A stretch of 26,451 nucleotides of DNA from a virus, in IMG/VR virus record IMGVR_UViG_3300002242_000612, positions 1 to 26,451 of that record. One strand, 5' to 3'. How positions within the stretch are numbered: position 1 is the stretch's first letter; the number at the start of each line of letters is the position of its first letter. The position numbers and the translations under genes are program-made. Below the pieces are notes generated by a model. The model had not been told where the DNA came from. It ran no database searches and saw nothing but the letters and a program-made list of their open reading frames with translations. Below, piece by piece: positions 3,826-22,135 of this stretch.

Positions 3826-4118
3826 TAAAAAACCCCGACGGTAATTGTCGCCGCTGTTCCGCCTGTTATCACTGCTCTAAATAATACATGGGGTGATACA
3901 ACAAACCTATATACTCCAGGTGCTGTATAACTTGAATTTGTATCTGCAACCCACTTCAGTGGGTCTGGCACGGGCCCGGCATCTGAGTTTGCAGAAAACT
4001 CAAAATCTACCGTGGCACCGCCCATTGTCCCCTCAATGATAACTGTGCGTTCACCGTCACCATCAAAGCGGAATATGCCTGATGTGGTGTTAGTTGTCTC
4101 ATTCTTAAATACTTGCAT
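3825..4118 (-). CDS. Putative structural protein, beta-sandwich (97 aa)
   Basis: The sequence alternates short beta-strands with Gly/Thr turns (GIFRFDGDGERTVIIEGTMG, VDFEFSAN, APGVYRFVVSPHVLFRAVI, TAATITVGVF). This is typical of small phage decoration or tail-associated beta-sandwich proteins. It has a good binding site (AAAGG about 10 bases before ATG). It lies just beyond the terminator that ends the capsid unit, with no promoter visible between. It is therefore probably made from read-through at lower level than the capsid protein, as suits a minor virion component. No specific family is recognised. Confidence 0.62.
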   Translation of the reverse strand: MQVFKNETTNTTSGIFRFDGDGERTVIIEGTMGGATVDFEFSANSDAGPVPDPLKWVADTNSSYTAPGVYRFVVSPHVLFRAVITGGTAATITVGVF

Positions 4119-6777: not shown

Positions 6778-8742
6778 CTATTGGATTAGTTGGTCATTAT
6801 CCACCGTGTTCGCGCCCGAAGTGTCTGGTGATGGCGCCGTAGGTTGATAGGCGTTGCCAGCGGCTTGATTGTCTTGCGATAAAGGCTGTTGGCCGGGTTG
6901 CTGCGGAATCCCGTCTTGTTGCTGTTGCATTTCGCCAAGCTGCTGAATAATAACCTCTTCGGATAGACCTAGATTATTAGCAATGTTTTTAACCAATTCT
7001 GCTCTGTCAACATACTGCATATCAACGGGATTCCCCGTCAATTGCGCGAATTGCATTTGTTTCTGTACTTGCAAGTCTTTACCGATGATAGTTGTTGCAC
7101 CGCGTACATGAACTTCAACGTCTGAATGCTTAATATCTTCGTCTTCAGACCACTTCATATTGAAGTCATAATAGGATTGGATCATTGGCCGGAACAGAAA
7201 ATCATCAATGTTCTTTATGACTGATTTAAGCACCACGTTAGATGCGTTCATCAACATGCCCATTCCTGTTGCCGTTTTATTCAGTCCTGGGCTTGTGACA
7301 CCGTATGTGTAACTTGGCATTGATGTCTCTTCGTCAGCAAAACGCTTTGCAACGTCAACAATTTTCAGCAGCGGGTCTCCAATAATCGGCGGTGTATAAA
7401 ATCTGAGCAGTGGCGTTGTTGGATCACCGCCCTCACGTCGCCACTTCTTACCGGGGATAACATCTGTTGTTTCACCCGGAGCAAGCAGATCTAGATTTAT
7501 CTCATACTGCGGTTCTTTAGAGATAGCCATATTATTCAGCAATGCTACATACGCAGAGTTAATAACACGCTGAGAGTCTTCCATGATGAGCGGAATTCCA
7601 ATAGCCCAAAACTGACCTGGTATTTTCTCATAAGGGACTATGTTATACGGAATCCGCTGCGGTGTCATCGGGTTTACAACCATCCTTATTGTTCGGTTTG
7701 CACAAAACCAGACATTGACTTGATAATCCTTCTTGACTTCCTCTTCGTCAAGCTTCATGCCTGACAGCTTAAGGTCCGCACCGCGCATATTGCCCCAATA
7801 CTCTAAAACAAGGTATCGGCCGTTGTGTCCTTCTATCGTACGTCTGAACCCATACAAATAGCGACGTTCTATCTCTGTTTTCCACGGCTCATAATCGCCA
7901 TCCGGAATATAGTCAAGTATTTCATCAATCGCACTTTTATCAAATCCTTTTAGTTGTGATAATTCAATAAGTTTATCCCGGCCAATAATATGCTGCTCAA
8001 AGATTCCTGACATATCGTTGGGTGTTTTCGCCCACGGATCAGGGAAAAGATCCCACACCGAGGGGGCATCAATCCCGGGTTCGACAACGCGCTCTGATGT
8101 ATATTCAAATGTATTATCTTCGAGCTTAATCCATTTTGGTTTATCCCGGACATTAATCGTCGCGCCTTTGATACATCCATTTCCCAAAAGGCAAAGTTCC
8201 ATTATTGCAAGCTTGAATTTACCGGGAAAATCAGCGTGCAATAACTGATCTTCAATAGTTTTCTCCATCTTGTCAGTGTTTTCTTTAATCACCGAGCGGA
8301 GCTTCTTACCCTCTACAAAGTCTGGCGCTTGCGTTATTGGGTCAACGTAAGTCATCCCGTCTTTAAACTCGGGAACCGGACTGGGTTCTATAGACCACGG
8401 GCGATCAGGGCCGAGCAATAGCTCAACGATGCGAGCGTAAGCTGCCATAGTCTTCGCCCGGGTTAGGCCTACAAAAACTTCAGTGCCGCCGACATCTTCT
8501 TTGGAGTCTTCGTCATAACGGCGAAGATATGCGCGAAGCGCACGCATCCAAGTCCACTCAATCTCTTCACGCTCATCCCGCCAGACAGTGAACTTACCAT
8601 ACAACAATCGCCCCACATGATCTGCTATGTCTTTATTTTCTTTTTCTTGAGAAATGTCTGCTGCTTTAGGCTCTGGGTTATACGGATTCTCAGCGTTGCT
8701 GTCGAGCTTTACAAACGTGAGACCCTTTTCATTGTTAATCAT
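6778..8742 (-). CDS. Portal (head-to-tail connector) protein (654 aa)
   Basis: It would form the dodecameric ring at one head vertex through which the terminase pumps DNA. It follows the large terminase and precedes the scaffold-like and capsid genes, the usual portal place. The length fits large podovirus-type portals. Visible features are a polar N-terminus, a segment WRDEREEIEWTWMRALRAYL, a central core (QFWAIGIPLIMEDSQRVINS and ALLNNMAISKEPQYEINLD), a Gly/Met-rich turn (TATGMGMLMNASN) before the conserved helix KSVIKNIDDFLFRPMIQSYY, and a Gln-rich C-terminal tail (QQQQDGIPQQPGQQP) as often seen in portals. The ATG has no obvious binding site. A possible weak promoter (TTGTTT, 17 bases, TATCAT) and a 14-bp palindrome lie in the spacer upstream. 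Confidence 0.85.
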   Translation of the reverse strand: MINNEKGLTFVKLDSNAENPYNPEPKAADISQEKENKDIADHVGRLLYGKFTVWRDEREEIEWTWMRALRAYLRRYDEDSKEDVGGTEVFVGLTRAKTMAAYARIVELLLGPDRPWSIEPSPVPEFKDGMTYVDPITQAPDFVEGKKLRSVIKENTDKMEKTIEDQLLHADFPGKFKLAIMELCLLGNGCIKGATINVRDKPKWIKLEDNTFEYTSERVVEPGIDAPSVWDLFPDPWAKTPNDMSGIFEQHIIGRDKLIELSQLKGFDKSAIDEILDYIPDGDYEPWKTEIERRYLYGFRRTIEGHNGRYLVLEYWGNMRGADLKLSGMKLDEEEVKKDYQVNVWFCANRTIRMVVNPMTPQRIPYNIVPYEKIPGQFWAIGIPLIMEDSQRVINSAYVALLNNMAISKEPQYEINLDLLAPGETTDVIPGKKWRREGGDPTTPLLRFYTPPIIGDPLLKIVDVAKRFADEETSMPSYTYGVTSPGLNKTATGMGMLMNASNVVLKSVIKNIDDFLFRPMIQSYYDFNMKWSEDEDIKHSDVEVHVRGATTIIGKDLQVQKQMQFAQLTGNPVDMQYVDRAELVKNIANNLGLSEEVIIQQLGEMQQQQDGIPQQPGQQPLSQDNQAAGNAYQPTAPSPDTSGANTVDNDQLIQ

Positions 8743-8815: not shown

Positions 8816-10477
8816 TCAATATCTTCGCCAGCTACACACATCCAGGGCGTGTACTGCTAAAGCGTTGGCCATGACGCGATCATCAAAACATCCAGGGCGC
8901 GCGTTCATAGACCCATTGTCCTCGACTGCAAATGTGCGCATCTCCGAGATAGTATCAGCGCTTATCAGGGTTTCCGGGTAATCTCTAAGCTGCGTGCTTA
9001 ACTTATCAATAATCATCGACTTGGTGCGTGCAGTTGTTACGAATCCGAGCTTTTTAGTTTGCCTGCCCTCCGATCTTGCCTCTTCGTCTTGTCTCGCGAA
9101 GACTCGCGGATAGTGCGATTTTCGTAGAATGTGACTAACCAATATGCCGTGATTATTTGCTTCGTGCAGAATGAACGCTCGATTAAAATATTTTGCAATA
9201 TTGAGAATAGTGTATGCAAACAGATCAGAAGCAGTATGCCCATGCCACTCAGCGCATAGCCTACCGCTTTTTAATTCAAGAACTTTCGCGCATGAGTAAT
9301 CACCGTGCGCGAGACCCTCTGCCACATCCGCTCCGATGACGTACCGAACCCCAGGAGCCGGGTATTCATAGATTTTCAGTGGTCCCTTGTCGCCGCTTAT
9401 CAACTCCCCACTCGACATTTCACCCGTGAACAGCGGCGCTTTGGTGAAATTCTGTGCAGCATCAAGCATTGATGCAGAGAAAACGGATCGTCCTGAGTAA
9501 ATGAATGCTTCATCTACGTTATTCGGATACTCTTGCTTAAACAAATCCTCCGACTTAAATTCAGAGATTTTATTCCTCCGCCACTGAAGCTTAGAGTTAG
9601 ACAATCGGTATAATTTCTTGAGCTCTTTCTCTTCAAGTGTCAAATTTTTGACGGTGTCTTTATCCACCGGGGCGGCGTATTCCGGCATCCAAAACCACGG
9701 CACAAAAATCAATTTCCAGGGACTTTTTTTGTCGTTTTTAGCTTCCATAACTAGATCATAAAACGCGCCGCCAACGCCATTAGCTGTTGATTCTACTATT
9801 ATTTCTGTGTCATTCTCACCAGGCACTGCTTGAAACACCCCGGCAAGATGATTTTCGGCATCGGGCCAAAAGGCAAACTCCGAAGCGTGCAAAAATTGAA
9901 TTGTTTCAGAGCGCCCAATCCCGCCGCGATTTCCTGCTGTTCCCACTTTATACCCCGAATCCAAATTTAAAAACGTCAATTCTTTGACGCTATCTTTTCC
10001 GACGCCAGGCTTATTGATATTCGGACAATATTTGTAAAACCGAGAGACCATTCCGAACAAATTTGCTGTTGCGCTTGCTTCATGCGTAACGATCCATGCC
10101 CGCGCGCCTGAATTCTGTGTTGTTTTCCAAAAAAAGCGTCCACCTGTGTAAGTAGATAGACCCATTTGCCGACCCTTTAACAGCAAAGTTCGTACTTTTC
10201 CTGTTTTTTCGCGCTGTTTTTCAATTTTACCATGGACAAACTGCTGTGCTGCATTGAGTCGTAACGCAACGATCTGTCGATTTTTAGCGCGAATGTACAA
10301 ATTATGAGCTGCATAAAACTGAAAATCAGTATGCGATAGCTGCGAGAATAAGCGCGCTGGTGAGCCGATAAAATTTTTGGGCGGCTGCCATACTACTGAG
10401 GGCGTTATCGCAGCGCTACGGGCAGCCTGCTTCGATATTTCACGTTCTGCGCGGTTAATCAGGGTTTGAATGTTCAT
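8816..10477 (-). CDS. Terminase large subunit (553 aa)
   Basis: This is the motor and nuclease that packages DNA into the prohead. The ATPase domain has a Walker A motif LLLKGRQMGLST (residues 98-109) and a hydrophobic stretch IQFLHASEF, with Glu200 as the probable catalytic acid after Walker B. The RNase H-like nuclease domain starts at YVIGADVAEGLAHGDYS with Asp384, continues at ILHEANNHG with Glu439, and ends at FDDRVMANALAVHAL with Asp532/Asp533, giving the three metal-binding acids. The length is normal. The first residues (EREISKQAARS) are basic and helical. The promoter just upstream has a perfect extended -10, giving a leader of only about 20 bases, and no clear ribosome binding site is present. 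The likely small subunit is encoded divergently. Confidence 0.93.
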   Translation of the reverse strand: MNIQTLINRAEREISKQAARSAAITPSVVWQPPKNFIGSPARLFSQLSHTDFQFYAAHNLYIRAKNRQIVALRLNAAQQFVHGKIEKQREKTGKVRTLLLKGRQMGLSTYTGGRFFWKTTQNSGARAWIVTHEASATANLFGMVSRFYKYCPNINKPGVGKDSVKELTFLNLDSGYKVGTAGNRGGIGRSETIQFLHASEFAFWPDAENHLAGVFQAVPGENDTEIIVESTANGVGGAFYDLVMEAKNDKKSPWKLIFVPWFWMPEYAAPVDKDTVKNLTLEEKELKKLYRLSNSKLQWRRNKISEFKSEDLFKQEYPNNVDEAFIYSGRSVFSASMLDAAQNFTKAPLFTGEMSSGELISGDKGPLKIYEYPAPGVRYVIGADVAEGLAHGDYSCAKVLELKSGRLCAEWHGHTASDLFAYTILNIAKYFNRAFILHEANNHGILVSHILRKSHYPRVFARQDEEARSEGRQTKKLGFVTTARTKSMIIDKLSTQLRDYPETLISADTISEMRTFAVEDNGSMNARPGCFDDRVMANALAVHALDVCSWRRY

Positions 10478-11032: not shown

Positions 11033-11059
11033 GTCTTTTTTTTCAAAAATCTAACAGAT

Positions 11060-11800: not shown

Positions 11801-11843
11801 TATAATCAAATCTTAGTCTGTGCAGACAACACAGACTAAGATT
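11801..11843 (+). promoter_or_regulatory. Promoter -10 with overlapping 14-bp inverted repeat
   Basis: A consensus TATAAT (11801-11806) lacks a good -35. Three bases later a perfect inverted repeat begins: AATCTTAGTCTGTG (11809-11822) and CACAGACTAAGATT (11830-11843), with a 7-base centre. The expected transcription start (about 11813) falls in the first arm, so the repeat could be an operator that blocks polymerase or a stable hairpin at the 5' end of the RNA. It also contains a nested GTCTG / CAGAC pair. No T run follows, so it is not a terminator. Confidence 0.6.
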
Positions 11844-11873: not shown

Positions 11874-11924
11874 ATGACTACAAAACATTCTATCAGTTTC
11901 ATACAGCAGCGAGAAGCTTTATGA
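11874..11924 (+). CDS. 16-aa leader peptide before the HNH gene
   Basis: The peptide MTTKHSISFIQQREAL has a good ribosome binding site (AAAGAGGT, 7 bases before the ATG). Its stop overlaps the HNH start as ATGA. The HNH gene itself has only a weak GAGAAG site, so ribosomes that finish the leader probably restart on the HNH frame. It may be a regulatory uORF or the remnant of a longer gene. Confidence 0.55.
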   Translation: MTTKHSISFIQQREAL

Positions 11925-12388
11925 ACGATCTCACCCAATCCCGTTTAAAAGAGCTACTGCAATACAGCCCGTCAACTGGGCTATTCACTTGGAAAATGTC
12001 CCGGCGTGGTAGAGCAAAAAGTGGCTCAGTTGCCGGTACTAAAACAAAAGCCAGTAATCCTTACCTATTAATAAGTATAGATTCAAAGCAATACTACGCG
12101 CATCGCTTAGCCTGGATTTATATGTACGGGGAAGCACCCCTACGTCGATTAACACATTTAGACGGCGATCACTCTAATAATAGAATAGCTAATCTAACGC
12201 TGTTAACGAACCCGGGTATTGAGCGATCGATCCTCCCCCGTATTGAATCTATAAGTGTACAAGTAGAATACTACGAAGCATTTATCGTAGTAGATAGAAT
12301 AAAATATAGCCTTGGCTATTTCTCTAGTAAAAAAAAGGCGACAGAAGCATGGCTCAAAGCTGCATATTTGGAGTCTGTTTTAGAATAA
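11921..12388 (+). CDS. HNH homing-type endonuclease with AP2-like C-terminus (155 aa)
   Basis: A free-standing DNA endonuclease of the kind that spreads among phages by cutting genomes that lack it. Residues 5-25 (QSRLKELLQYSPSTGLFTWK) are the typical N-terminal helix and strand. The HNH core runs from YYAHRLAWIYMYG (His61) to LTHLDGDHSNNRIANL, with His79 and Asn87 as the likely catalytic pair; many relatives have Asp-His where this one has Thr-His. The last 40 residues (FIVVDRIKYSLGYFSSKKKA then TEAWLKAAYL) match the strand-strand-helix of AP2-type DNA-binding domains. The gene is translationally coupled to a 16-codon leader and lies behind a promoter with a large inverted repeat. It may be selfish, or in some phages such enzymes assist packaging or genome exclusion. 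Confidence 0.85.
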   Translation: MNDLTQSRLKELLQYSPSTGLFTWKMSRRGRAKSGSVAGTKTKASNPYLLISIDSKQYYAHRLAWIYMYGEAPLRRLTHLDGDHSNNRIANLTLLTNPGIERSILPRIESISVQVEYYEAFIVVDRIKYSLGYFSSKKKATEAWLKAAYLESVLE

Positions 12389-12436: not shown

Positions 12437-12465
12437 TTGACATTCTTGATGTATGGTTGTAGTAT
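12437..12465 (+). promoter_or_regulatory. Strong promoter for the accessory operon / small RNA
   Basis: TTGACA (12437-12442) matches the -35 consensus exactly. Seventeen bases on is TAGTAT (12460-12465), with an overlapping TATAGA three bases further. Transcription would begin near 12472. Confidence 0.72.
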
Positions 12466-12471
12466 AGATTC

Positions 12472-12560
12472 CGACGTAAACGAACAGCCCCACCCAGCGG
12501 GGCGAGTAGCTGGGACTCCTTAATAGACCTTGCCCCGGTGTTAAAGCCGGGGATCTTTTA
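12472..12560 (+). ncRNA. Candidate structured RNA with H-type pseudoknot and terminator-like hairpin
   Basis: Starting just after the promoter, the RNA can form GCCCC / GGGGC (12487-12491 with 12499-12503). Its 7-base loop holds CCCAGC (12493-12498), which is exactly complementary to GCTGGG (12509-12514) downstream. This gives a 5-bp stem, a 1-base loop, a 6-bp stem and a 5-base loop (GAGTA): classical H-type pseudoknot geometry. A second hairpin, CCCCGG / CCGGGG (12533-12538, 12547-12552), is followed by ATCTTTT. The element could be a ~90-base small RNA, or the riboswitch- or attenuator-like leader of the gene at 12601. It is not a tRNA. No known RNA family is recognised. Confidence 0.5.
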
Positions 12561-12600
12561 AAGAGTAAAAAATTATCATTAATATTTTGGAGATAGAAAA

Positions 12601-13074
12601 ATGAAAATTGAAATAAAACTCAATAAAGAAGATGCGTCTCTTATCAGAGACGCTTTTGTAGTATCCCAAGAAGACGAGTATTACGCTCGTCTTGAAGTCC
12701 AGGCAGACAAATTAATTTGGGTCACCTCTGGTGGCTCAGAATACTTTTTAAACGAAAAAGAAGGGACTCTAACATACCTAGGCTCTCGCCTTGGGTTCCA
12801 ACACGGCGCCCGGTGGGGCGGCGTCACACCCCGTTGGAACAAAGAAGGCACAAAGAAATTGCCCTTGCCAAATCTTACAATCTATTTCAACACGCCGCTC
12901 GAAGGGGTGATTAACGCAGAGCTACTATCCTGCGAATCCTCAACCCCTGAATGGGTTATAGGACGTAATAACCCATTCCACGATGTTCTCGATCTGATAA
13001 ATCAGATCGAGGAGAGGGAAAGTGAAGAAAAGGAAGAAGAGTTAGGTGAAATGATCGAAAGATCGTTCGCCTAA
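12601..13074 (+). CDS. Hypothetical acidic protein (157 aa), hairpin-rich gene
   Basis: A good TTTTGGAG binding site precedes the ATG. The protein starts with beta-like strands (MKIEIKLNKEDASLIRDAFV), has a Gly/Arg/Trp-rich middle (GFQHGARWGGVTPRW), then PLPNLTIYFNTPLEGVINAE, and ends in a strongly acidic helix (NQIEERESEEKEEELGEMIE). No family is recognised. The DNA is unusual: inside the frame lie perfect inverted repeats with 8-, 8-, 11- and 11-bp arms (at 12671-12693, 12795-12840, 12949-12978, 12988-13011). A GC-rich 7-bp stem followed by TTTT at codons 12-19 (12634-12657) resembles an intrinsic terminator. It is the first gene of the group that shares ARGGAU hairpins. Confidence 0.7.
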   Translation: MKIEIKLNKEDASLIRDAFVVSQEDEYYARLEVQADKLIWVTSGGSEYFLNEKEGTLTYLGSRLGFQHGARWGGVTPRWNKEGTKKLPLPNLTIYFNTPLEGVINAELLSCESSTPEWVIGRNNPFHDVLDLINQIEERESEEKEEELGEMIERSFA

Positions 13075-13083
13075 CCCCCCAAT

Positions 13084-13099
13084 GCGCCAAGGATGGCGC
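13084..13099 (+). promoter_or_regulatory. ARGGAU hairpin 1 (CsrA/RsmA-type site)
   Basis: GCGCC and GGCGC pair around the hexaloop AAGGAU. CsrA/RsmA proteins bind best to A-R-G-G-A-U hexaloops closed by C-G, which this matches fully. The GGA lies 28 bases upstream of the GGA in the binding site of the gene at 13134, a distance one CsrA dimer can bridge. Confidence 0.55.
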
Positions 13100-13451: not shown

Positions 13452-13467
13452 GCGCCAGGGATGGCGC
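13452..13467 (+). promoter_or_regulatory. ARGGAU hairpin 2 (CsrA/RsmA-type site)
   Basis: GCGCC and GGCGC enclose the hexaloop AGGGAU, the other allowed form of A-R-G-G-A-U. It lies 33 bases before the GGA of the CTTTGGAGA binding site of the gene at 13507. A short TTAAAAC repeat separates the two. Confidence 0.55.
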
Positions 13468-14287: not shown

Positions 14288-14305
14288 AGTGCCAAGGATG
14301 GCGCT
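14288..14305 (+). promoter_or_regulatory. ARGGAU hairpin 3 (CsrA/RsmA-type site)
   Basis: AGTGCC and GGCGCT (one G-T wobble) enclose the hexaloop AAGGAU. About 100 bases separate it from the binding site of the next gene, and most of that distance is a 9-bp tandem repeat. Confidence 0.5.
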
Positions 14306-14320
14306 TTAACCCTAACACCC

Positions 14321-14383
14321 AACATCAACAACATCAACAACATCAACAACATCAACAACATCAACAACATCAACAACACCAAC
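14321..14383. repeat. 9-bp tandem repeat, six exact copies and one variant
   Basis: AACATCAAC is repeated six times exactly (14321-14374) and once with a C (14375-14383). It sits between hairpin 3 and the ribosome binding site of the gene at 14409 and contains no start codon. Copy number is likely to vary by slippage, which would change the hairpin-to-start distance. Confidence 0.93.
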
Positions 14384-14408
14384 AACGCGCATTTTGGGGG
14401 AACACACA

Positions 14409-14705
14409 ATGAGTGAAGTTAAAGAAAAACACGTTATGAGTACCGTCTCACAATATGACCGGGATACGCAAGAGTTCCGGGAATGGCGTGATCAGCGAAT
14501 CAAGGAAGAAAACAGCATCATTATTGAAACGCTGAATGCATACGGCATTCACTGGATGATCTTTGGCGGGCGGTTGTACGCATGGGATAATTGGGCCCTA
14601 CCTGGCGGATCATACACCGGCTGGGTGTTGATAGATGGCTGGAACACAGATCGACTCAGAACTTGGTTAACAAATCGGCAGGTAAGCCCCATAGATCAAC
14701 CCTAA
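14409..14705 (+). CDS. Hypothetical protein (98 aa)
   Basis: The ATG at 14409 is chosen over the in-frame TTG at 14394 because the GGGGGA binding site lies between them. The N-terminal 40 residues are charged and helical (YDRDTQEFREWRDQRIKEEN). The second half is rich in Trp and Gly (GIHWMIFGGRLYAWDNWALP, TGWVLIDGWNTDRLRTWL), as in a small compact beta domain. No family is recognised. It belongs to the string of small plus-strand genes with similar leaders and is followed by a short TAAAACT repeat. Confidence 0.65.
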   Translation: MSEVKEKHVMSTVSQYDRDTQEFREWRDQRIKEENSIIIETLNAYGIHWMIFGGRLYAWDNWALPGGSYTGWVLIDGWNTDRLRTWLTNRQVSPIDQP

Positions 14706-15035: not shown

Positions 15036-15118
15036 ACCGCAGCGGGAAAACCTCCTAATAACTCCCGCGGCCCTGGCCCGCTGCGGTAATTCATAGTGCC
15101 AGGGCTGCGGACTTTTTT
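15036..15118 (+). promoter_or_regulatory. Structured leader with competing helices and T run
   Basis: In the 154-base gap 14995-15148 several long helices overlap. ACCGCAGCGGG (15036-15046) pairs perfectly with CCCGCTGCGGT (15077-15087). GCGGGA (15042-15047) can instead pair with TCCCGC (15063-15068). GCCCTGGC (15070-15077) pairs with GCCAGGGC (15098-15105). CCGCAG (15037-15042) can pair with CTGCGG (15105-15110), which is followed by AC and six T. The 11-bp helix and the last two helices share bases, so a terminator-like and an alternative fold exclude each other. The loop also carries ACCTCCT, able to pair with the GAGGT binding site of the next gene. It may be a conditional terminator. Confidence 0.5.
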
Positions 15119-15974: not shown

Positions 15975-16670
15975 ATGGAATTGGTAGAAGTAAATAAAAA
16001 CGAAGTTTATTGCGATAGTCATATTGTTGCTAGAAAATTTGGGATTAAAAACGCCAATGTAGCAATAATAATAAAAAATGTTTTAAAGGATATTGGAGAT
16101 TTAAAAGTCTGTGGTGCAGACCCTAAATGTTACGCAGAAGAAAGAGAATACAGGGGTAATAAATACACAGCTTATATTATGAATAGAGATTTCTTCTCTT
16201 TTCTGGTGATGCGGTTCAAAGGTAAAAAAGCTGTTATTTGGCAGCTTAGATTCATAGCTGCGTTTAACACGATGGAACAACACATTCTGTCAGCCGACAA
16301 AAACGCGACTGATCCAAAGTGGCTTAATAAACGTGAATTAGGAAAAGCCGCCAGGTTGCAAGAAACTGACGTTATCAAAGAGTTTGTCGAATATGCCAAA
16401 AAACAAGGTAGTACATCAACTGAGTTTTATTATAGTCGCATCACAAACGCGACCTATAAAGCACTCGGATTAATGACCCAAAGAAAGCCTAAGCTAAGAG
16501 ACACAATGGACTTTTACGAACTATCAGAGCTGTTGTTGGCTGAAAGATTTGCAAAAAACAGCTTAAAAAAATACATGGACTTGGGAAGAAATTACAAAGA
16601 TATTTACGATAGTGTTCGTGATGATCTTTTAGATTTTGGAACAAGCCTAAAATTAACGCATGAATTATGA
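15975..16670 (+). CDS. Rha-family phage regulatory protein (231 aa)
   Basis: Rha-type proteins are early phage regulators; the family name comes from a P22-like phage gene that hinders growth in hosts lacking IHF. The N-terminal 100 residues match: V-x-C/T-x-S-x-x-VA-x-x-F (EVYCDSHIVARKFG), helices and the strand YRGNKYTAYIMNRDFFSFLV, then MRFKGKKAVIWQLRFIAAFN, which ends with the family's typical W-x-x-x-FI-x-AFN-x-ME. The C-terminal 110 residues (from about 120) are a separate helical and basic domain that I do not recognise; other Rha proteins carry ANT or KilA-C domains there. It has its own strong promoter and a stop overlapping the next gene (ATGA). It probably binds DNA and governs the switch to replication genes. 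Confidence 0.82.
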   Translation: MELVEVNKNEVYCDSHIVARKFGIKNANVAIIIKNVLKDIGDLKVCGADPKCYAEEREYRGNKYTAYIMNRDFFSFLVMRFKGKKAVIWQLRFIAAFNTMEQHILSADKNATDPKWLNKRELGKAARLQETDVIKEFVEYAKKQGSTSTEFYYSRITNATYKALGLMTQRKPKLRDTMDFYELSELLLAERFAKNSLKKYMDLGRNYKDIYDSVRDDLLDFGTSLKLTHEL

Positions 16671-21592: not shown

Positions 21593-22135
21593 ATGAAAAT
21601 CCAACTAAAAAACGTTCGACTATCCTTTCCAGACCTTTTTAAAAAAGGTAAACCATTCGGTGATGCTGCTGAAGGAGCATTCGGGGCAACATTTCTTATT
21701 GATAGAGATGATCCGGAACTGGCTACCATCCGTTCAGCTATCAAAGAATTAGTAAAAAATGAACTGAAGGGGGCGAAGTTATCGCCGGACAAAGTTTGTT
21801 TGCGCGACGGTAATGACAAAGATTATAAAGGTTTTGAAGGCACCTTTTACCTCAACGCGCGTAATAAAATACGACCGACTGTAGTAAATCGTGACAGGTC
21901 GCCTATCACAGAAGAAGACGGTATTATCTATGCAGGGTGTTACGTCAACGCCATTGTGGATTTATGGGCAATGGACAATCAGTTTGGTAAGCGAATCAAC
22001 GCATCTTTGTTAGGTGTTCAGTTCTTCAAAGACGGTGAAGCTTTCTCTGGAGGCATCAGCGTATCCAAGTCCGATGATTTTGAAGAACTTGAACCTCTGG
22101 ATGAAGCAGAAAACAGCGATAACGACTGGATGTAA
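21593..22135 (+). CDS. DUF2815 ssDNA-binding protein (180 aa)
   Basis: DUF2815 proteins are OB-fold single-stranded DNA-binding proteins related in form to T7 gp2.5. The sequence follows the family closely: KNVRLSFPDLFKKGKPFGDA, then EGAFGATFLIDRDDPEL, a central GTFYLNARNKIRPTVVNRDR, and IIYAGCYVNAIVDLWAMDNQ with RINASLLGVQFFKDGEAF. The last 17 residues (EELEPLDEAENSDNDWM) are strongly acidic with a terminal aromatic, as in SSB and gp2.5 tails that bind polymerase and helicase. It would coat exposed strands and link the nuclease before it to the polymerase after it. The upstream leader contains a 10-copy 7-bp repeat. Confidence 0.88.
   Translation: MKIQLKNVRLSFPDLFKKGKPFGDAAEGAFGATFLIDRDDPELATIRSAIKELVKNELKGAKLSPDKVCLRDGNDKDYKGFEGTFYLNARNKIRPTVVNRDRSPITEEDGIIYAGCYVNAIVDLWAMDNQFGKRINASLLGVQFFKDGEAFSGGISVSKSDDFEELEPLDEAENSDNDWM

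Follow-up and report, generated by a model that had tools for sequence, protein, structure and literature searches.

The locus raises the question of what lies between an HNH endonuclease gene and the rightward orphan genes that follow it in a phage contig, and whether the RNA made from this interval governs the operon behind it. The window, i.e., the whole stretch of DNA analysed, is a complete IMG/VR virus record of 26,451 bases with 41% GC. The interval, called the leader below, sits between the HNH gene and ORF 12601 and heads the series of rightward orphan genes. Its neighbourhood comprises the following genes:

6778–8742, leftward: SU10-type portal gene
8816–10477, leftward: terminase gene
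11921–12388, plus strand: HNH endonuclease gene, directly 5' of the leader and in the same direction as the operon
12588–12591, plus strand: Shine-Dalgarno GGAG of ORF 12601, read from the sequence
12601–13074, plus strand: ORF 12601, the operon's first ORF, an acidic orphan of 157 aa (pI 4.66)
15975, rightward: Rha gene
16960, rightward: primase gene
21593, rightward: Enc34-type single-strand-binding protein gene (PF10991), 9 kb from the leader
22145, rightward: family A polymerase gene
25078, rightward: SNF2-type helicase gene

ORF 12601 has an AU-rich start region, and its ribosome binding site lies in weak predicted structure only. No family match was found for this ORF in Pfam or NCBIfam, no toxin family in Pfam, NCBIfam or PADLOC, and no match by sequence among solved structures; its fold model was too poor for use (pLDDT 40). 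Upstream of the HNH gene, just 3' of a TATAAT-like stretch, a 14-nt perfect inverted repeat (AATCTTAGTCTGTG/CACAGACTAAGATT) occupies 11809–11843 and, judging from its sequence, is a candidate operator or leader hairpin.

The leader and the start of the operon contain these elements:

12437–12465, plus strand: promoter-like site TTGACA-17-TAGTAT, 10 of 12 consensus bases, AT-rich upstream
12472–12486, plus strand: presumed transcript start, placed from the promoter spacing, and 5' tail, unpaired in the nested fold
12487–12514, plus strand: H-type pseudoknot of 28 nt (S1 5 bp, L1 1, S2 6 bp, L2 0, L3 5)
12498–12506, plus strand: 5' strand of a putative antiterminator, overlapping S2, the 3' strand of S1 and L3
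12515–12532, plus strand: linker, which holds CTCCTTAATA and partners for L3 and for the hairpin flank
12529–12537, plus strand: 3' strand of the putative antiterminator, overlapping the 5' arm of the hairpin
12533–12559, plus strand: GC hairpin (12533–12552) with ATCTTTT, weak and terminator-like
12634–12653, plus strand: perfect 8-bp hairpin followed by TTTTG, inside the start of ORF 12601 and better than 12533 as a terminator

A preliminary description had reported a near-consensus promoter, an H-type pseudoknot with stems of 5 and 6 bp and linkers of 1, 0 and 5 bases, and a 6-bp GC hairpin with ATCTTTT, and all three were confirmed. The promoter-like site has TTGACA at 12437–12442, a 17-nt spacer and TAGTAT at 12460–12465, with the presumed start about 15 nt 5' of the pseudoknot. 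The pseudoknot was recovered exactly by reading and by an exhaustive scan. In S1, 12487–12491 pair with 12499–12503 (GCCCC/GGGGC) and in S2, 12493–12498 pair with 12509–12514 (CCCAGC/GCTGGG); L1 is A12492, L2 is absent and L3 is GAGTA (12504–12508). All 11 predicted pairs are Watson–Crick. By established geometry, a single base in L1 can span a 6-bp S2, and five bases in L3 can span a 5-bp S1.

The scan covered S1 and S2 of 5–7 bp, L1 of 0–3, L2 of 0–1 and L3 of 3–10, with the sites ranked by stacking energy. The stacking sum of the leader pseudoknot (−27.33) was the window's best for this geometry on both strands. It was matched in none of 40 whole-window dinucleotide shuffles, none of 5000 local 91-nt shuffles and none of 150 shuffles in 100-nt blocks. 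The comparison set consisted of 215 of 225 loci, with L001 (the window itself) and L098–L106 left out; its 2.06 Mb held 54 sites at or below −25 kcal/mol, and none occurred in the 385 kb of phage DNA from loci under 46% GC. Initiation of a pseudoknot carries a penalty of 9–10, and subtraction of this assumed value from the stacking energy (−27.3) leaves a net of about −17 to −18. The nested fold of 12472–12562, two adjacent hairpins, had unremarkable stability (z −0.53); the signal thus resides in the pseudoknot, which is the better fold. The notion of a leader with unusual nested stability was rejected on the same z value. The longer stretch 12472–12670, which includes the hairpin inside ORF 12601, reached z −4.46. 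Altogether, these results support the prediction that a structured, non-random RNA element lies between promoter and operon, in the position of a leader for the genes from 12601 on.

The GC hairpin reads CCCCGGT-GTTAAA-GCCGGGG, with six G–C pairs and one G–U, and is followed by ATCTTTTAAA. Its U tract is poor, and its d score (d'Aubenton-Carafa form) was −23, compared with 4.5 for the hairpin at 12634 and 10.1 for one at 11056; given this low value, we term it terminator-like. Hairpins of this kind 3' of the promoter were found at 12533, 12634 and 15742, the one at 12634–12653 being listed as terminator-like in both directions. In the fold of 12472–12670, the linker finds partners in the U tract and in GAGT at 12563–12566.

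A second pairing competes with these structures. Segments 12498–12506 (CGGGGCGAG) and 12529–12537 (CTTGCCCCG) could form nine pairs, one of them G–U, and constitute the sole inverted repeat reported in 12440–12640 (seed 6, length 8). The helix draws on the 3' strand of S1, on L3 and on the hairpin's 5' arm, so neither the pseudoknot nor the hairpin could coexist with it. Among nested folds, it has the lowest energy for nascent RNA that stops at 12538 (−17.7) or at 12545 (−20.8); for RNA completed to 12552, the nested minimum is again S1 plus the hairpin (−26.3). The modelled energies of the pseudoknot (about −17 to −18) and of the 9-bp helix would thus be close at the decision point. Helices of at least 9 bp arose in 4.4% of 20,000 permutations of all parts and in 1.6% of 20,000 permutations of L3 and linker only, which is suggestive of an antiterminator-like competitor. 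The permutation result is not proof because the two GC stems share GCCCC, which provides 6 bp of the competing helix for free; 6 bp was the floor in the permutations of L3 and linker.

The reading that we favour, as possible rather than probable, is a leader acting in cis, in which the pseudoknot would favour the hairpin and so attenuate the rightward operon starting with ORF 12601. The sequence and the predicted pairing are as given above, and from them we infer the order of folding, the termination and any trigger. The pseudoknot would fold first, as RNA polymerase leaves the promoter, and would sequester 12498–12506; the hairpin at 12533–12552 would then form and the polymerase would pause or partly terminate, keeping downstream expression low. 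Were a bound protein, a fast-moving polymerase or another factor to keep the pseudoknot from forming, 12498–12506 could pair with 12529–12537, the hairpin would be prevented and transcription would continue. The poor U tract (d −23) counts against attenuation, since the amount of termination open to control may be small. The pseudoknot, moreover, probably folds long before the competing helix can be transcribed, in which case a switch that lacks a trigger may never change state.

A bolder version, which we consider decidedly unlikely, would make the leader a novel phage RNA switch at the head of an early operon, the nascent pseudoknot choosing between the 9-bp antiterminator and the terminator hairpin. 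No less doubtful is the idea that such a switch senses a phage or host protein or the speed of the polymerase, with a second structured element at 15037–15117, which has a U run and precedes ORF 15149, as a possible counterpart at a later point of the same transcript. The setting of a pseudoknot against an antiterminator would, if functional, seem to be new; nothing similar was found among the titles and abstracts retrieved on phage pseudoknot leaders and antitermination, which is weak evidence. The 9-bp helix excludes a terminator-like hairpin as in attenuators with mutually exclusive hairpins, but no leader peptide was seen here, the antiterminator has a pseudoknot as its alternative and the U tract is weak. 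A role is known for few pseudoknot-bearing phage leaders, the standard case being that of T4 gene 32. If the leader gates transcription, it would offer a compact, testable case of a phage operon controlled by a pseudoknot set against an antiterminator; a leader that is only a stable 5' structure would be ordinary. As it stands, it is another structured phage leader, without relatives in the collections searched.

Relatives were sought at the RNA and the protein level. Rfam gave no match to the leader at gathering level; with E up to 5, the single sub-threshold match was to the sRNA family anti-hemB, at 11.8 bits against a cut-off of 49.5. BLASTN against phages, plasmids and E. coli genomes yielded no match spanning the element. 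The 17-mer of the P1 hairpin occurred once in IMG/VR, in a GC-rich stretch lacking the second stem, and the L3-plus-linker pattern ten times, never with a similar pseudoknot in the flanks read; none of eight matches to an 18-mer over S1/L3/S2 in genome contigs had the 5' strand of S1. A covariance model built from the leader alone matched 7 of 369 genomes at a per-genome E of 0.01, with 3.7 expected by rough E-values, and these were rejected, the loci read being ordinary hairpins or stretches without a similar pseudoknot.

Neither ORF 12601 nor ORF 13507 had relatives in IMG/VR or among phages; ORF 12601 had none among plasmids and, across the 369 genomes, only a 34% stretch with two stops in one genome (E 0.007). 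The nearest terminases were 48–49% identical in IMG/VR and 48% identical in 1 of the 369 genomes, and in a second class of 289 genomes, six had terminases of 37–45% identity. Eight window proteins were sought in four regions flanking such terminases, without a match at E 0.05, and the strongest pseudoknot of these regions lay inside a gene. When the eight local window proteins were compared with the 225 loci, leaving out the window (L001), only the HNH protein was matched (L208, L202).

A leader-like stretch, GCCCCGGCCCGATCCGGGGCCGAGTAGTTCGGGG, was noticed upstream of an ATG in a GC-rich phage (L121, approximately 4010–4042, minus strand), with a pseudoknot of the layout GCCCCGG..CCGGGGC, CGAGTAG and TCGGG. 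It had no match in phages or Rfam. Of 640 pseudoknot sites, only three had GAGTA in L3, a lower count than for many other words, and the resemblance of L121 to the leader is probably due to chance.

Several other explanations have to be weighed against attenuation. A passive 5' structure, which would slow decay of the operon mRNA or keep a ribosome stand-by site open without any sensing, is unlikely. The position at the very 5' end and the AU-rich start region of ORF 12601 would suit it, as would the precedent of tisB, whose stand-by translation requires a 5' pseudoknot (PMC7708055). The tisB ribosome binding site is sequestered, however, whereas that of ORF 12601 is in only weak predicted structure, and the competing 9-bp helix would be left unexplained. 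Unlikely, too, is a pseudoknot that arose by chance where the intergenic DNA is rich in GC and that has no function of its own. A site of −26.3 that lies plainly within a gene, in a prophage whose terminase is 42% identical, indicates that such knots arise by chance, and the leader has no homologue, no family and a fold z of only −0.53. Against chance stand the block shuffles and the low-GC phage DNA, neither of which produced an equal, and the position of the pseudoknot in non-coding DNA exactly between promoter and operon. The T4/RB69 gene 32 operator suggests another role, in which a phage RNA-binding protein would nucleate on the 28-nt pseudoknot and spread over an AU-rich stretch to the ribosome binding site. 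The gp32 message has a 5'-terminal pseudoknot of about 28 nt, behind which a less structured stretch carries UUAAA/UAAA units, and a homing endonuclease gene lies beside it (PMC535899). The leader has a predicted pseudoknot of the same size at the same place at the 5' end of a phage mRNA, followed by UUAAUA and UUUUAAAG and adjoining the upstream HNH gene. In contrast to gene 32, it has its own promoter-like site, a GC hairpin intervenes between pseudoknot and ribosome binding site, and the gene behind it, ORF 12601, has no family match and is not a single-strand-binding protein gene; the phage's own SSB-like gene lies 9 kb off at 21593. We therefore judge a gene 32-type operator distinctly unlikely.

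The preliminary description had offered a free RNA of about 90 bases, a proposal now weakened by the poor U tract and weak terminator and in our view fairly unlikely; its 5' end would be protected by the pseudoknot and its 3' end formed by the hairpin, and the linker ACUCCUUAAUAGACC would pair with phage ribosome binding sites such as that of rha. The linker does contain CUCC, complementary to Shine-Dalgarno sequences, and its best pairing among 30 translation starts of the window (two taken one base off, at 14410 and 14759 for the ATGs at 14409 and 14758) was with the rha start at 15975 (−15.4). Of 1000 linker shuffles of each type, 95 (dinucleotide) and 81 (mononucleotide) paired equally well, as did 200 of 1000 random 17-mers of the window, and the linker as a rha antisense was rejected as not significant (8–10% and 20%, respectively). 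A type III antitoxin, either a ToxI/CptI mimic directed against a host toxin or a one-unit antitoxin with ORF 12601 as the toxin, is very unlikely. The leader shares with ToxI, CptI and TenpI a predicted H-type pseudoknot RNA and the order of promoter, pseudoknot, hairpin and ORF; CptI likewise has a one-base L1 and coaxial stems (PMC5086642, PMC4627078), and phages carrying ToxI mimics are described (PMC3475682). Type III antitoxins are tandem repeats, but the leader is a single unit, with no direct repeat over the pseudoknot among the 20 largest of 37 repeat families; at the sequence level, the acidic ORF 12601 has no match to a ribonuclease of the ToxN/CptN/TenpN type; and the 9-nt, A-rich L2 of CptI contrasts with the short L3 here, GAGUA, which is not A-rich. 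We consider highly improbable a put-like RNA that would bind the transcribing polymerase and carry it past the operon terminators. As in HK022, a structured RNA lies directly 3' of an early-type promoter with terminator-like hairpins downstream, and put RNAs are about 70 nt long, near early promoters and protein-independent (PMC9378689); compared by layout, however, they consist of two stem-loops, and the word pseudoknot is absent from that paper. Least credible is a metabolite riboswitch with the pseudoknot as aptamer. The compact H-type pseudoknots of preQ1 and SAM-II riboswitch leaders have stem and linker lengths like those found here, and a terminator/antiterminator pair can be drawn. In contrast to them, the leader has no Rfam match, its pure GC-rich duplex stems should fold without a ligand, and the genes downstream are phage orphans, not metabolic. 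With no homologue found and no conserved pocket demonstrable, the riboswitch label in the preliminary description is unsupported.

Other structured elements were observed further downstream. In the same operon, three near-identical intergenic hairpins, GCGCCA-AGGA-TGGCGC and variants, stand behind ORFs 12601, 13134 and 13507:

13084–13099, 13452–13467 and 14289–14304: CsrA-site-like hairpins with the loop AAGGA or AGGGA

By sequence, they resemble the RsmZ-2 hairpin CCCCGAAGGAUCGGGG, which is bound by RsmA, and the A(N)GGA motif (PMC4066749). CsrA (PF02599) was not found among the proteins encoded in the window. The exact hairpin 16-mer occurred in at least 119 IMG/VR stretches. Among the matches listed, 117 had enough flank, and the 16-mer preceded a Shine-Dalgarno sequence and start in 21 of these in the hairpin direction versus 1 in reverse; some of the 21 lie in GC-rich coding-like sequence and may be due to chance. 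Two loci, L163 and L184, have two intergenic copies each.

The segment 15037–15117, between the small ORF 14758 and ORF 15149, is strongly structured (fold z −3.36, equalled by none of 200 shuffles); it has a loop of CCUCCU and a long hairpin directly followed by TTTTTT. It had no credible Rfam match and its loop 19-mer was absent from IMG/VR. An alternative 10-bp helix, CCGCAGCGGG/CCCGCTGCGG, would turn it into a pseudoknot. Between ORF 13507 and the next gene, 14320–14386 holds tandem 9-nt repeats of CAACATCAA.
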